Assembly (NCBI RefSeq): GCF_030270585.1
Contig: NZ_BSYI01000021.1
Coordinates: forward strand, 1 to 64,000
Length of the DNA: 64,000 nt
Source of the DNA: Paralimibaculum aggregatum
Lineage (GTDB): Bacteria > Pseudomonadota > Alphaproteobacteria > Rhodobacterales > Rhodobacteraceae
Reading direction: 5' to 3'
Shown: positions 22,613 to 26,865 of the stretch, one piece after another
Layout: every line of letters begins with the position of its first letter
Numbering within the stretch: position 1 is the first letter of the stretch
Program-made: the position numbers and the translations under genes
Notes under the pieces: generated by a model
The model's input: the letters and a program-made list of their open reading frames with translations, nothing else
Told to the model about the DNA's origin: nothing
Databases searched by the model: none

Positions 22613-23449
22613 TCAGGAGGCCGCCGCGGCGGCCCCGGCCGGCCGGGGCGCGAAGATCCGCGTGGTCTCCGGCAGCCGCAGCCCGGTTGCCCGGCGCTCC
22701 GCCCAGGCGGCTTCGGCGCGCGCGCGGAACCGGTCGCGCTGGCCGCGGTCCACCACCTTCGTCATCCAGCGCTCGGGCCAGCGGCCGGGCTCCGGCACCC
22801 CGGCATGGGCGCAGCAGGCGGCCAGCACCGCCTCGCGCCGCGACGCCAGCGCCTCGTATTCGACAACACAGACCGGCCGCGCGAGCCGCGCGCAGACACG
22901 GTCGAGAAAATCCGTCTCCAGCGCGATGTCCTGCAGGATCTGCTCGAGCCGCTGCGGCGTGAAGGTCTCGAGCGCCGCCTCCTGGCTGAGCGTGCCGGCG
23001 CGCTCGTCGCGGCGCTCCTCGCCGCTGGCCGTGCGGAAATAGATGCCGGTCGCGGTGGCGAGGTGGCGCGACAGCGCCTGGTCGAACCGGTCCGCCCGGT
23101 CGATGCGGAAGATCGCCGCCGGCCCCCACTCCGCCTCGAGCGCCAGGAGCATCGCCGCCGAGGCCGCGACATCGTCCGCCTCCGGCACGGCATCGGGCGG
23201 CAGCCAGGCCCGGGCGAGCTTCGGCAGATAGTCCGCCATCAGCTTGACGCCGACAGTGCCGGCCCTGCCGCGCCCGCGCTCCGCGATCGCCTCGAACTCG
23301 GGCCGCGGCAGCCGCGCCCCCCCGGCCGCCGCCCGCAGCCAGGGCAGGAAGTGCTCGCCGGGCTTGCCGAGCCCGCCCATTGCGGAAAACTCCGAGCAGA
23401 GCAGCGTGCTGCCGGTCCGCTGCGTGGCCAGAATGATGGTGCTCGTCAC
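22613..23449 (-). CDS. Stf0-family sulfotransferase
   Basis: 278 residues. The N-terminal IILATQRTGSTLL is the 5'-phosphosulfate-binding loop of PAPS-dependent sulfotransferases, and GLGKPGEHFLPW follows as in Stf0, the trehalose 2-sulfotransferase of mycobacteria. GVKLMADYL and the central IFRIDRADRFDQALS helix also fit. Alphaproteobacterial Stf0 relatives are common and their acceptor substrates are mostly unknown. The start is GTG at 23449, behind a GGAGG about 6 bases upstream; the longer ATG frame to 23506 adds 19 unrelated residues. A hairpin element lies 120 bp upstream. Confidence 0.82.
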   Translation of the reverse strand: MTSTIILATQRTGSTLLCSEFSAMGGLGKPGEHFLPWLRAAAGGARLPRPEFEAIAERGRGRAGTVGVKLMADYLPKLARAWLPPDAVPEADDVAASAAMLLALEAEWGPAAIFRIDRADRFDQALSRHLATATGIYFRTASGEERRDERAGTLSQEAALETFTPQRLEQILQDIALETDFLDRVCARLARPVCVVEYEALASRREAVLAACCAHAGVPEPGRWPERWMTKVVDRGQRDRFRARAEAAWAERRATGLRLPETTRIFAPRPAGAAAAAS

Positions 23450-23763
23450 ACGCCCTCCTCCGAACCGCGGAGTTCGCACGGCCCCGCATCGACGGTTCTC
23501 GAACAAAGCGCTAACAGGATAGGATTAACCGCCGGTTACCGCCGCGCGTCCGGCGCAGGAGGCAACGGAAAAGGGCCGCCGGTGCCCGAGGGAAGCTGCG
23601 CACCGGCGACCAATCGGAACGAGGGACACTCTAGGCTGCGCAGCGGGCGTTCATCTCCGCCGGCAGATACCGCGAGCGCGTCGGGGCGCGTCGGTATGAA
23701 AGTCACTGTATGCGATTCCGGTGGTGTGTGCAAGTTGCTGTACTCATACCGACCGAAGATTTT
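23450..23763. other. intergenic region upstream of the sulfotransferase
   Basis: 314 bp between two minus-strand genes. It holds one copy of the paired hairpin element (23569-23628). On the plus strand 23690-23760 is AT-richer and contains GGTATGA and its inverted counterpart TCATACC. No coding sequence is convincing. Confidence 0.5.
23569..23628 (-). ncRNA. candidate small RNA or attenuator, copy A
   Basis: Read on the minus strand: a 15-nt block TGTCCCTCGTTCCGA (23614-23628), 2 nt, then a 12-bp stem (arms 23600-23611 and 23574-23585, one G-U pair, 14-nt loop), then CTTTTCC. The same plan recurs at 24297-24357 with stems of different sequence that still pair. The stem plus T-tract looks like an intrinsic terminator. 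The shared block could be the seed of a small RNA or a leader element of the sulfotransferase gene 120 bp downstream. A candidate -10 box TAGAGT (23629-23634, minus strand) abuts the block. Unknown family. Confidence 0.5.
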
Positions 23764-24270
23764 TCAGCCCTGCGCCGCCGGCTCGGCCGAGGGCAGCAGA
23801 CCGGCCCGGCGCAGCCGCGGCAGCTCGATCTTCGGGCAGCGATCCATCACCACGTCGAAGCCCGCCGCACGCGCCCGCGCGGCCGCGGCGGCGTCGATCA
23901 CGCCGATCTGCATCCAGATGGCGACGCCCGCCTGCCCGCCGAGCGCCGCGATGGCCTCGTCCACCACCGCGCCGGCCTCGGCGGAGCGCCGGAAGATGTC
24001 GACCATGTCGATTCGCACGCCGGACGCGACCAGCTCGGAGAGCGAGCCGGCCACCTCGCGGCCGAGAATCATCTCCCCCGCATGGCGCGGGTTCACCGGA
24101 TGAACCGCGAATCCTGCACGAATGAGATAATCTGCCACCTCGTGGGATGGGCGGTCGACTCGCGGCGAAGCGCCCACGACCGCGATCGACCGTGTTCTCA
24201 GAAAGATCTCGCAAAGCTCTGCGTCAGTGGGAGAAACCGTGCTCAACAGATCACATCCGGAATATGGCAT
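23764..24270 (-). CDS. CoA-binding protein (YccU-like)
   Basis: 168 residues forming one Rossmann-type CoA-binding domain. SIAVVGASPRVDRPSHEVADYL is the nucleotide loop, VHPVNPRHAGE the second strand region, VAIWMQIGVID and VVMDRCPKIEL the conserved C-terminal part. The family resembles the CoA-binding domain of succinyl-CoA synthetase alpha subunits; its physiological role is not known. ATG at 24270 is used. It has a weak ribosome site (GAGG 13 bases upstream), and a TTG eight codons later is an alternative. The start lies 26 bp after the hairpin element at 24297-24357. Confidence 0.85.
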   Translation of the reverse strand: MPYSGCDLLSTVSPTDAELCEIFLRTRSIAVVGASPRVDRPSHEVADYLIRAGFAVHPVNPRHAGEMILGREVAGSLSELVASGVRIDMVDIFRRSAEAGAVVDEAIAALGGQAGVAIWMQIGVIDAAAAARARAAGFDVVMDRCPKIELPRLRRAGLLPSAEPAAQG

Positions 24271-24296
24271 CGGCTCTGCACGGTCGCCTCAGGTTG

Positions 24297-24357
24297 AAAA
24301 GGGCCCGCCGATATGCATCAAGGATGCTACCGACGGGCCAAGTCGGAACGAGGGACA
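24297..24357 (-). ncRNA. candidate small RNA or attenuator, copy B
   Basis: Same architecture as copy A: block TGTCCCTCGTTCCGA (24343-24357), 3 nt, a 16-bp stem (arms 24324-24339 and 24302-24318, two G-U pairs, one bulged A, loop CCTTG), then CTTTTC. It ends 26 bp before the CoA-binding protein start, so it would suit an attenuator in that leader. Presence of a second copy upstream of a different gene favours a mobile regulatory motif or homologous small RNAs. No coding capacity. Confidence 0.5.
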
Positions 24358-24365
24358 GTGAGAGA

Positions 24366-24385
24366 GAGGCCGACCAATCGGCCTC
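24366..24385 (-). terminator. rlmB terminator hairpin
   Basis: Perfect 8-bp stem GAGGCCGA / TCGGCCTC with loop TTGG on the minus strand, followed by TCTCTC, about 80 bp after the rlmB stop. It lies directly before the conserved block of hairpin element B. It could instead be part of that element's 5' end. Confidence 0.5.
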
Positions 24386-24467
24386 GCTGATAACAATATG
24401 TGGCCGAGGTTAGAAATTTGTAACCCCGGTATCACACAGCTCACGAAAATTTTTGGTATCAATCGTA

Positions 24468-25304
24468 TCAAGCGCTTGGCCCCTTTCCGGGCCCCCTGAG
24501 CGCGCGCGCGGCGAACAGCGAAACCGCCGCCGCGTTGGAGACGTTGAGCGAGCCGAAGGCGCCCGCCGGATCGATCCGCGCGATGCGATGGCAGAGGCTG
24601 CGGCTGCGCGCGCGCAGCCCCGGCCCCTCGGCGCCGAGCACCAGGCAGACCGGGTCGCTCCCCGCCCCGGCGATCGCCTCGGGCAGCGTGACGTCGCCCT
24701 CTCCATCGAGCCCGATCAGGCTGTAGCCCATCGCCCCCAGCTCCTCGAGCGCATCGCCGAGATTGCGCACCCGGAGATAGGGCTGGCGCTCGAGCGCGCC
24801 GGAGGCGGTCTTGGCCAGCGCCCCGGTCTCCGGCGCCGAATGGTGGCGCGGCGCGATCACCGCCTGCGCGCCGAAGACCTCCGCCGAGCGCAGCACCGCC
24901 CCGACATTGTGCGGATCGGTCACCCGGTCGAGCGCCACCACCACCGCGGGCGGCCCCTCGGCGGCCGGCAGGCAGCGCGTCTCCAGCTTGCCCCAGTCGA
25001 GCGGCGAGACCTCCATCGCGGCGCCCTGGTGCACCGAGCCCGGATCGAGCGGCGCGGTGAAGCGCCGCGCATCGGCAATCTCCGGCTCGATCCCGGCGCC
25101 CTCGAGCACATCGGCCAGCCGGTCGGCGGCGTTCTTCGTGAGGATCAGCCGGTGGCGCCTGCGCTTCGGATTGGCCAGCGCGTCGCGCACCGCGTGGATG
25201 CCGAACAGCCAGACCCGCTCGGGCCCGTCCCCGTGCCGCGCGCCCGGCCCGCGCGGGGCGCCCCGCAAGCCCCCGGATCTCGCCTGCGGCTGTGGCTTTC
25301 GCAT
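24468..25304 (-). CDS. rlmB: 23S rRNA 2'-O-methyltransferase, RlmB/TrmH type (SpoU family)
   Basis: 278 residues. A Lys/Arg-rich head and small substrate-binding domain (about 30-105, RVWLFGIHAVRDAL) precede a SpoU knot domain (about 115-270). Knot motifs are VVALDRVTDPHNVGAVLRSA (motif 1, with the catalytic Arg), LVLGAEGPGLR (motif 2) and LNVSNAAAVSLF (motif 3). RlmB methylates the 2'-O of G2251 in the 23S rRNA P loop; other SpoU members act on tRNA, so the site is inferred. ATG at 25304 has a perfect GGAGG. The longer frame upstream is antisense to tRNA-Tyr and not protein. Divergent from the tRNA gene. Confidence 0.9.
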   Translation of the reverse strand: MRKPQPQARSGGLRGAPRGPGARHGDGPERVWLFGIHAVRDALANPKRRRHRLILTKNAADRLADVLEGAGIEPEIADARRFTAPLDPGSVHQGAAMEVSPLDWGKLETRCLPAAEGPPAVVVALDRVTDPHNVGAVLRSAEVFGAQAVIAPRHHSAPETGALAKTASGALERQPYLRVRNLGDALEELGAMGYSLIGLDGEGDVTLPEAIAGAGSDPVCLVLGAEGPGLRARSRSLCHRIARIDPAGAFGSLNVSNAAAVSLFAARALRGPGKGPSA

Positions 25305-25366
25305 GATGGTCCTCCCTTGGTTCCCGTCCATTATGCGCGGAAACGAAAACCGGCAAGGGCATGGCC

Positions 25367-25396
25367 TTGACACCTCCCCGGAGCCGGGTCTACATC
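25367..25396 (+). promoter_or_regulatory. sigma-70 promoter of tRNA-Tyr
   Basis: TTGACA (25367-25372), an 18-bp spacer, TACATC (25391-25396). A start 6-7 bases downstream would leave an approximately 8-nt leader before the tRNA. The consensus -35 and the position make this the clearest housekeeping promoter in the window. Confidence 0.7.
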
Positions 25397-25410
25397 CCCG
25401 CCACCACCTC

Positions 25411-25496
25411 GGAGGGGTGGCAGAGCGGTCAAATGCAACGGACTGTAAATCCGTCGGGGAAACCCTACGCTGGTTCGAATCCAGCCCCCTCCACCA
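25411..25496 (+). tRNA. tRNA-Tyr (anticodon GTA)
   Basis: An 86-nt class II tRNA with a long variable arm. Acceptor GGAGGGG (25411-25417) pairs with CCCCTCC (25486-25492), followed by discriminator A and an encoded CCA (25494-25496). The anticodon stem ACGGA/TCCGT (25438-25442 and 25450-25454) encloses loop CTGTAAA with anticodon GTA at 25445-25447. The T-loop TTCGAAT is standard. It faces away from rlmB. Confidence 0.97.
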
Positions 25497-26070
25497 TTTC
25501 CCGGACATCGCGAGGCGAAGCGGCGGTCTTGCCGGGCAAATGTTCCGTGCCCTGCCTCTGACGCAGGAGAAGGCCGACGCTCACGCCGGGCCTTCCCTGG
25601 CCTCGCGGCGAAGGTGACGGGCGGAATTCCCGCGGGTGCCAACGGCTGTGTGCGCCTCGCAACCTGGGAGGCCCTGATCCGGCGGGGCCATGGGTACCCG
25701 GCATCCGTTGCCGGGACCTGCACATCTGACCGGAACGGCGAATCCCCAAACCTCGGGCAAGTGACACGCGGAGCAGTGCGCCAGGCAGCAGGCCGATCGG
25801 GCCTCGGGCTTCGGCGCCACGAGGCGCTGCCCGGTCGATCACACCTAGCACCTTGTATCCCTTGAACAACCTCCTGCCAAACCAAGGGAAACCCACCTGC
25901 AACTCCCATCGAAACTTGGTTCGCATATGAAATCATCATCAGTTCTCTTGACACTTTATTGAATTTTTATTCAGCCTACCCTTCGAGGGAGCAACTGATC
26001 TCGCGATATTGGCGAATTCTGTGTGCTTTTTCGTGCGTAGGTTGATATTTTACCAAGGGGTAGATGCCTG
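25497..26070. other. 574-bp region between tRNA-Tyr and the VPLPA-CTERM gene
   Basis: No convincing gene; open frames on both strands lack family features and ribosome sites. The first 340 bp are GC-rich. From about 25850 the sequence becomes AT-rich. It contains TTGACA (25948-25953) followed by AT-rich TTTATTGAATTTTTATTCAG, which includes an imperfect palindrome TTGAAT-TTTT-ATTCAG (25960-25975). This is likely the promoter and operator region of the gene at 26071. Confidence 0.5.
25948..25976 (+). promoter_or_regulatory. candidate promoter of the first VPLPA-CTERM gene
   Basis: TTGACA with a poorly matched -10 (TATTCA at 25968-25973 gives a short 14-bp spacer). An imperfect palindrome overlaps the -10 side. 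The AT-rich setting in a GC-rich genome supports a regulatory role, but the exact promoter is uncertain. Confidence 0.3.
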
Positions 26071-26865
26071 ATGAAGTTTCCGATCCTCACCACCCTCGGG
26101 GTGGCAGCGGCGCTGTGCGCGTCTCCGGCCTTTGCGGTCGGCCTGACCGAAACCTTCGACACCAACCCGATCCTTGCGGAGAACCAGGCCCCGGGGGTGT
26201 GGTACGAGGACCGGTACGCGCCGGCCGGGTTCTCCTCGACCTTCTTCGCCGGCGACAACCGGCTCGAGCTCGAGCTGTCGCAGGCCGACAGCACCGACAA
26301 CCGCCCGCCCAGCTTCAGCAGCGCCTTCTACGACACGCAGGGGCGCAAGTTCGACACGCCGGGCGCGACGATGCTGGAGATCGACTTCTACATCGACGCG
26401 GGCTTTGCGACGCTCGACCAGCGCATCGGCGGCATCTGGGGCACGGCCACGACGCCGGGCGGCGACGTGTTCCCGATCCTCGAATTCTTCGGCGGCGAGT
26501 TTCAGGTCTACGACACCGCGGGCACCTTCTCCTTCGTTCCCGTGGGCACGCCGACGGGGTTCGCCTATGACCAGTTCGCGACACTCAAGATCTCGCTCGA
26601 CACGATCGATGACGAGTTCGACTATTTCGTCGATGACGAGCTGCTGGGCTCCTTTGCCGCGGGCGGGGCGACCGAGATCCTGAACGTCATCCTGCAGGGC
26701 GTGAACCGGGGCGAACCGGGGAGCGAGAATGCCGGGGTCAACCGCAGCCTCTATTTCGACAATCTCGAGGTGAGTGGCGGGGCCACGGTTCCCCTGCCCG
26801 CCCCCGCGGCCCTGTTGCTGACCGGCCTTGCCGGGCTCGGCCTGCTTCGCCGGCGCGCCGCCTGA
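26071..26865 (+). CDS. secreted VPLPA-CTERM sorting-domain protein
   Basis: 264 residues. A Sec signal peptide (about 1-22, cut after SPAFA) precedes an acidic beta-rich domain with FDTNPI, FYDTQGRKFDTPGATMLEIDF and YFDNLEVSG. The segment reads like a laminin-G/concanavalin-like fold of extracellular proteins. The C-terminus VPLPAPAALLLTGL plus GLLRRRAA is the VPLPA-CTERM signal: motif, membrane helix and Arg cluster, predicted to be processed by an exosortase-type enzyme on the cell surface. No exosortase gene is in the window. ATG at 26071 follows AAGGGG. Function of the mature protein is unknown. Confidence 0.85.
   Translation: MKFPILTTLGVAAALCASPAFAVGLTETFDTNPILAENQAPGVWYEDRYAPAGFSSTFFAGDNRLELELSQADSTDNRPPSFSSAFYDTQGRKFDTPGATMLEIDFYIDAGFATLDQRIGGIWGTATTPGGDVFPILEFFGGEFQVYDTAGTFSFVPVGTPTGFAYDQFATLKISLDTIDDEFDYFVDDELLGSFAAGGATEILNVILQGVNRGEPGSENAGVNRSLYFDNLEVSGGATVPLPAPAALLLTGLAGLGLLRRRAA

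Follow-up and report, generated by a model that had tools for sequence, protein, structure and literature searches.

The window analysed here, a 64,000-nt stretch of Paralimibaculum aggregatum DNA, carries a minus-strand gene for a CoA-binding protein that lies between two hairpin elements, A and B. The locus contains the following features, given in the direction of the minus strand.

24468..25508, minus strand: rlmB-type rRNA methyltransferase ORF, upstream of stsR, true start perhaps further in (PF00588, PF08032)
24419..24425, minus strand: copy B, putative −35 element GGTTACA of the family promoter (two-block promoter model)
24396..24402, minus strand: copy B, putative −10 element CACATAT (two-block promoter model)
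near 24389, minus strand: copy B, inferred transcript start (from the promoter position)
24366..24385, minus strand: copy B, 5′ hairpin (HP1), loop without the common GGAAC (fold z −3.9)
24343..24357, minus strand: copy B, pairing block TGTCCCTCGTTCCGA (repeat match, R1 match)
24297..24339, minus strand: copy B, terminator hairpin and T4 tail (folding, T-tract comparison)
23764..24270, minus strand: CoA-binding protein gene, between A and B (PF13380, E 9.3e-33)
23636..23666 (approximate limits), minus strand: copy A, 5′ hairpin (HP1), GAAC in the loop (fold z −1.8)
23614..23628, minus strand: copy A, pairing block TGTCCCTCGTTCCGA (repeat match, R1 match)
23569..23611, minus strand: copy A, terminator hairpin and T4 tail (folding, T-tract comparison)
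22613..23449, minus strand: Stf0-type sulfotransferase gene, downstream of A, counted from GTG; the listed ORF starts at 23506 (PF09037, E 3.8e-14)

The initial annotation had placed two hairpin elements on the minus strand at 23569-23628 and 24297-24357, and the sequence bears this out. The 15-mer TGTCCCTCGTTCCGA is the same at 23614-23628 and 24343-24357, and each block is followed by a long stem-loop (−28.2 and −29.0 kcal/mol) and then CTTTTC. We also recovered the reported distances to start codons: B ends 26 nt before the ATG at 24270, and A ends 120 nt before the GTG at 23449, an in-frame codon within the listed ORF at 22613-23506. The repeated hairpin elements are confirmed as a real feature of the window. 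A 5′ hairpin before each block and the promoter of B had been overlooked.

Each element had also been called an intrinsic terminator. The T tract has only 4 T in both A and B, and a simple promoter and terminator scan of the window listed neither element. Because 58 of 61 family copies have 5-8 T, termination at A and B is possibly leaky. Pieces of 67 nt gave folding z-scores of −2.46 (A) and −4.97 (B). Over longer stretches the score remained at −4.55 for B (121 nt) and was −0.50 for A (134 nt), no better than shuffles.

Between 22400 and 25600, TGTCCCTCGTTCCGA was the sole direct-repeat family with a 100% second copy among those listed, and no third place was found at ≤1 mismatch in the 5.5-Mb assembly. 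At the base composition of the window, ~0.7 repeated 15-mers are expected within 1 kb. The 15-mer repeat alone is not beyond chance; its conservation in other genomes is.

Two further features lie near the locus. A tRNA gene (25411-25493, plus strand) sits at the rlmB end, on the opposite strand, and overlaps the start of the listed rlmB ORF; a relative's locus (L033) has a tRNA beside rlmB too. The plus-strand protein encoded at 26071-26865 has no Pfam match and ends in VPLPAPAALLLTGLAGLGLLRRRAA, which resembles a VPLPA-CTERM sorting signal.

The RNA family and its relation to StsR

We sampled 248 genomes, one per genus, from the family of the window organism. The block occurred at ≤1 mismatch in 179 of the 248 genomes, compared to 25 genomes for a reversed control pattern. 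We opened the first 30 family loci (L003-L032) and left out six as chance pattern matches that did not have the layout (L004, L005, L010, L019, L023, L024). The remaining 24 copies, which include no sequence of the window or of its genus, were used to build a covariance model, R1. R1 recovered both elements of the window over the full length of the model, B scoring 25.1 bits (24297-24388, E 1.4e-5) and A scoring 21.7 bits (23568-23670, E 1.4e-4). The third-best match in the window reached 9.3 bits (E 0.67). At E ≤ 0.01, R1 matched 218 of the 248 genomes, the window genome included. The claimed homology of the two elements is upheld by a model trained on neither, and a covariance-model search, the kind of check that had been proposed, did find further copies in relatives.

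A second model, R2, was trained with the copies from the window and its genus as well, and its structure holds the terminator pairs only. In a class-wide sample R2 matched 34 of 385 genomes at E ≤ 0.01. Among the matches listed, no genome of the same family (five in all) scored worse than E 2.3e-11, and the best genome from elsewhere reached 3.5e-5; below E 1e-6, matches in the class-wide sample were confined to the family of the window organism. Rfam at gathering score gave one tRNA in the window and nothing over either element, and three family copies (L030, L002, L033) gave no match over the RNA up to E 1.

In the family architecture, a promoter is followed by a 5′ hairpin whose sequence is free, then by the block ACUGUCCCUCGUUCCG and finally by a terminator. 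The 5′ hairpin folded at z < −1 in 74 of 78 copies, window copies included (mean −2.7). The copies in the two family alignments, of 24 and 29 copies, were gathered mostly via block matches, so the invariance of the block in these alignments is partly selection; copies with an altered block end exist (e.g. G049, G089).

The family includes a published small RNA. The StsR Northern probe 5′-GGACAGTGAAGGTAGAACGG-3′, as printed in PMC11354728, is the exact reverse complement of the copy in genome G051, whose locus (L030) is one of the 24 sequences in R1. G051 is Cereibacter sphaeroides (R. sphaeroides below): a 3-kb stretch is 100% identical to named plasmid records, strain 2.4.1 among them. Full-text searches with block sequences returned no sRNA paper, and a shorter flanking stretch returned the StsR probe. 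The older name of StsR, RSs0827, did not fit as a map position in kb (mraZ at 694.9 kb, StsR copy at 858.1 kb), and this reading was dropped once the probe had settled the identity.

In published accounts (PMC8307010, PMC11354728, PMC8625941), StsR is described as an Hfq-bound RNA induced by RpoHI/RpoHII, with induction in stationary phase and under stress in R. sphaeroides. It is reported to pair with UpsM and the dcw 5′ UTR, upon which RNase E cuts both. In these accounts StsR is a stress-induced sRNA that restrains cell division genes in Rhodobacter, and the work on it concerns one species. No paper in the collection searched mentions StsR and Rhodobacteraceae together with conservation; the main 2021 StsR paper, outside this collection, may report conservation. 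The length given for StsR of R. sphaeroides in PMC8307010 is 72 nt, compared to ~85-95 nt for the family RNA counted from the inferred start to the T tract.

StsR of R. sphaeroides 2.4.1 and the window elements belong to the same RNA family by covariance model. They share the pairing block, the layout of 5′ hairpin and terminator, a related promoter, rlmB upstream, a CoA-binding gene downstream and complementarity to the mraZ/dcw leader. The window differs in having two tandem copies rather than one, in that A has no promoter and B no GGAAC in its hairpin loop, and in its shorter T tails. The window StsR is known here from its sequence; transcription, sigma factor, Hfq binding, cleavage, growth effect and the fate of A are what we infer for the window organism. 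Several homologous stress sRNAs at one locus are also seen in R. sphaeroides with CcsR1-4, which differ in being processed from a ccaF1 transcript (PMC8307010); the likeness noted here is one of locus arrangement.

These data suggest that both elements are very probably StsR copies, with B the ortholog that pairs with the mraZ leader and A a tandem extra copy. The sequence family itself was known already; what is new is its recognition in this genus and the uncommon tandem duplication. With regard to rpoE as a target, rpoE/chrR was not found in G051 by PF12973 or TIGR02451 and was not recognised among its 10 PF04542 (sigma-70 region 2) loci. The rpoE-chrR pair is known in R. sphaeroides, so a search filter or a stretch missing from the sequence searched may account for this result.

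Complementarity to the mraZ leader

UpsM, the sRNA from the dcw 5′ leader, is the target partner of StsR and not the element itself. It is given as 206 nt long, starting 268 nt upstream of mraZ, in PMC5089854. On the G051 leader, these lengths would bring the UpsM end into the T tract that follows the terminator hairpin.

We collected 53 mraZ leaders and used 50, leaving out one in which no MraZ start motif could be recognised and two from genomes for which no StsR copy was in our set. The 50 leaders come from genomes for which both loci were at hand and are not a random draw. Complementarity to the genome's own block (≤1 G-U) extended over a run of 10 bp or more in 39 of the 50 leaders and fell short of this in 11. 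The longest pairing run averaged 10.2 in leaders compared to 7.7 in shuffled leaders. With shuffled seeds, a mean of 2.9 leaders in 50 (maximum 6) had runs of at least 10 bp. Neighbouring stretches from the same genomes had such runs in 2 of 156 cases, compared to 21 of 26 leaders. When only exact words were counted, at least 9 nt were common to the complement in 19 of 50 leaders, compared to 57 of 1,000 shuffles.

Two leader sites recurred. The first, GGGACGAGGG, faces the block half CCCUCGUUCC in 27 of 52 leaders. In all 27, a strong hairpin starts ≤3 nt from the last two bases of the site; the 64-nt stretches at these sites fold at −25.9 to −38.3 kcal/mol, and T-rich sequence follows the hairpin. 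The second site, GGGACAGTG, faces CACUGUCCC; with ≤1 mismatch allowed, 19 of 52 leaders carry it at the mraZ start, and its in-frame GTG is the likely mraZ start codon. The initial annotation had suggested that the pyrimidine-rich block could pair with ribosome binding sites in the manner of a small RNA seed. A seed able to pair near translation starts is supported for B as an StsR ortholog and agrees with this second site.

The mraZ leader of the window genome (G000) lies on another contig (C9). As in the UpsM leader, a GC stem is present with GTTTCATT behind it, and the StsR-complementary site stands directly before the stem: GGACGAGGGAC pairs over 11 bp with GUCCCUCGUUC. None of 40 shuffles gave an 11-bp run, although the best duplex energy for this leader was unexceptional (z −0.89). 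A site of the GGGACAGTG type at the mraZ start was not found in the leader of the window genome.

By complementarity, the block is the predicted pairing region for the mraZ leader. Leader pairing would account for a block that is unchanged between A and B amid sequence that otherwise differs. The block would pair with the long 5′ leader of mraZ, the first gene of the dcw cell-division cluster, at the foot of the leader terminator, and it may also do so at the start of mraZ in many relatives. If events follow those in R. sphaeroides, RNase E cleavage would then lower dcw mRNA and slow growth under stress or in stationary phase.

Three side observations concern the leaders. In 27 leaders (e.g. 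G231, G153) the tip of the terminator hairpin carries CAGTGGCAG, more than a plain terminator needs. In R. sphaeroides a second stretch complementary to both block halves (L073, ~1440-1490; duplex −36.8 kcal/mol) lies between the UpsM terminator and mraZ, where it overlaps the likely ribosome binding site. CCCAT-like words with ~10-nt spacing, noted by eye, lie upstream of the mraZ leaders of G051 (L073) and G000 (L074), and resemble MraZ binding repeats.

Copy B, copy A and alternative readings

We scored the upstream sequence of both copies with a two-block promoter model made from 76 other copies, genus copies included. The family consensus is cCTTTaa at −35 and CCTATnT at −10, separated by 15-16 nt. 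B scored 9.5, above the maximum of 400 random windows (7.0). For RpoHI/RpoHII promoters, PMC3441632 names C-14, T-13, A-12 and T-9, with an important TTG at −35. The family −10 fits these positions, and CACATAT of B keeps the A and T only. The TTG triplet is uncommon in the family (mostly CTTT) and absent in B (GTTA), so the sigma factor of B is unproven.

Gene order was surveyed at 11 loci, with neighbours recognised by eye against the window proteins. We observed the order rlmB-sRNA-CoA-binding gene at five of them (L014, L028, L029, L030, L033), as at B of the window, and rlmB as the only recognised neighbour at L016. The order was not seen at L003, L007, L013, L022 and L026 under a crude longest-ORF rule. 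B stands in the same gene order as StsR of R. sphaeroides, and A sits behind the CoA-binding gene. Among genus-mates, G248, G250 and G251 have one full-scoring copy each, and no copy was found in G249, which is 85% complete. In the region compared, G248 and G251 match Limibaculum sediminis and Thermohalobaculum xanthum records without a difference, which makes the window organism a relative of Limibaculum. Judged by its rlmB-stsR-CoA-binding order and promoter-like sequence, B is the StsR ortholog. From the family-wide promoter, B would give an RNA of ~90 nt in which the block ACUGUCCCUCGUUCCGA lies open between a 5′ hairpin and a terminator. Read-through from B into the CoA-binding gene is possible because its ATG lies 26 nt behind B.

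GGAAC is present in the 5′ hairpin region of 64 of 78 copies (e.g. L030, ~1475-1485) and is complementary to GUUCC of the block. B lacks it, and A and the genus copies keep GAAC. A GGAAC-GUUCC pseudoknot, or a lid over the seed, is possible. RNAalifold preferred this pairing to hairpin 1 with 24 copies, and returned hairpin 1 with 29 copies; covariation cannot decide here because the block hardly varies. As a lid, the GGAAC loop would pair with the seed GUUCC until the dcw leader displaces it, family-wide.

Copy A differs from B in several respects. Its promoter score is −6.4 (median of random windows −3.0), and CAC before the block is changed to GAG. At genome scale (E ≤ 0.01) R1 found B alone in the window genome, and A was recovered by R2, which was trained with A. 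We observed at least two R1 matches at E ≤ 0.01 in 42 genomes, all of which were searched again (35 with R2, 7 with R1). The second matches were mostly a terminator alone or below 25 bits. Of five that were opened, only G101 had the block, with a diverged 3′ half and ~1 Mb from the first copy; in the other four (G244 C71, G199 C95, G250 C20, G200 C1) no block was found within 3 mismatches. Among the extra places of the block pattern listed, G171 C2 and G065 C6:184 kb were ordinary copies, and the layout was absent by eye from G244 C28, G171 C4, G065 C6:192 kb, G096, G142, G022 (twice) and G158. Second StsR copies look uncommon, which is no count, since five second matches were opened and an A-like copy would escape R1 in a whole-genome search. 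The elements had been proposed as paired small RNAs; they are homologous, but their equality is doubtful, with A lacking the family promoter and second copies uncommon.

A might be a duplicate in decay whose sole remaining role is to terminate transcription of the CoA-binding gene. The missing family promoter, the change of CAC to GAG, the weak fold of the longer stretch and the start of A ~100 nt past the CoA-binding stop codon all point this way. However, all 15 nt of its block are intact and both hairpins are present in predicted folds. Its duplex with the mraZ leader of the window genome (−36.4 kcal/mol) is at least as strong as that of B (−28.5 kcal/mol), in a comparison with no shuffle control. 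We regard decay as a serious contender, somewhat short of an even chance.

Leader attenuation was the second function proposed initially, with B as the attenuator of the CoA-binding gene, A as that of the sulfotransferase gene and the block binding a common regulator. The distances to the two start codons (26 and 120 nt), the short T tracts and the CoA-binding gene behind stsR in several genera would suit such a role. Against it, the block is complementary to mraZ leaders family-wide, and a trans-acting sRNA has been published for R. sphaeroides in the member found there; the gene order was also not seen at 5 of 11 loci, with the upstream gene only at one (crude longest-ORF rule). Attenuation as the main function is unsupported, because conservation of the element includes a promoter of its own and published work gives it a role in trans. 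This reading is improbable and not needed. The least credible alternative, a chance repeat adjoining two unrelated terminators, has the ~0.7 expected 15-mers in its favour, but the block is conserved with its hairpins and terminator in most genera sampled and the independent model R1 recovers both copies; for B, family-wide conservation already refutes it.

As an StsR copy, A is a tandem paralog with the same block and, because this block is kept and a family promoter is missing, probably either made by read-through or decaying. If A is transcribed at all, this would most likely be by read-through from B across the CoA-binding gene, which short T tails (4 T) would favour. A may be released from the transcript that spans B and the CoA-binding gene, or it may be a duplicate in decay. 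A more speculative reading, which we consider rather unlikely, is a split pair: B would be an StsR under a stress promoter and A a 3′-UTR-derived StsR from the CoA-binding transcript, with the GGAAC lid acting family-wide. If true, two separate controls would bring the same seed to the dcw leader.

For what is known of StsR, the survey of its conservation and the predicted pairing at two sites are useful additions. StsR is present in most sampled genera of its family, and its conserved region consists of two halves that match two recurring mraZ-leader sites. The first of these sites adjoins the base of a conserved terminator hairpin in all 27 leaders that carry it. With the bases to mutate named, the link from stress to cell division becomes testable in many marine and soil bacteria, and the window provides a naturally duplicated pair of which one member lacks the family promoter.
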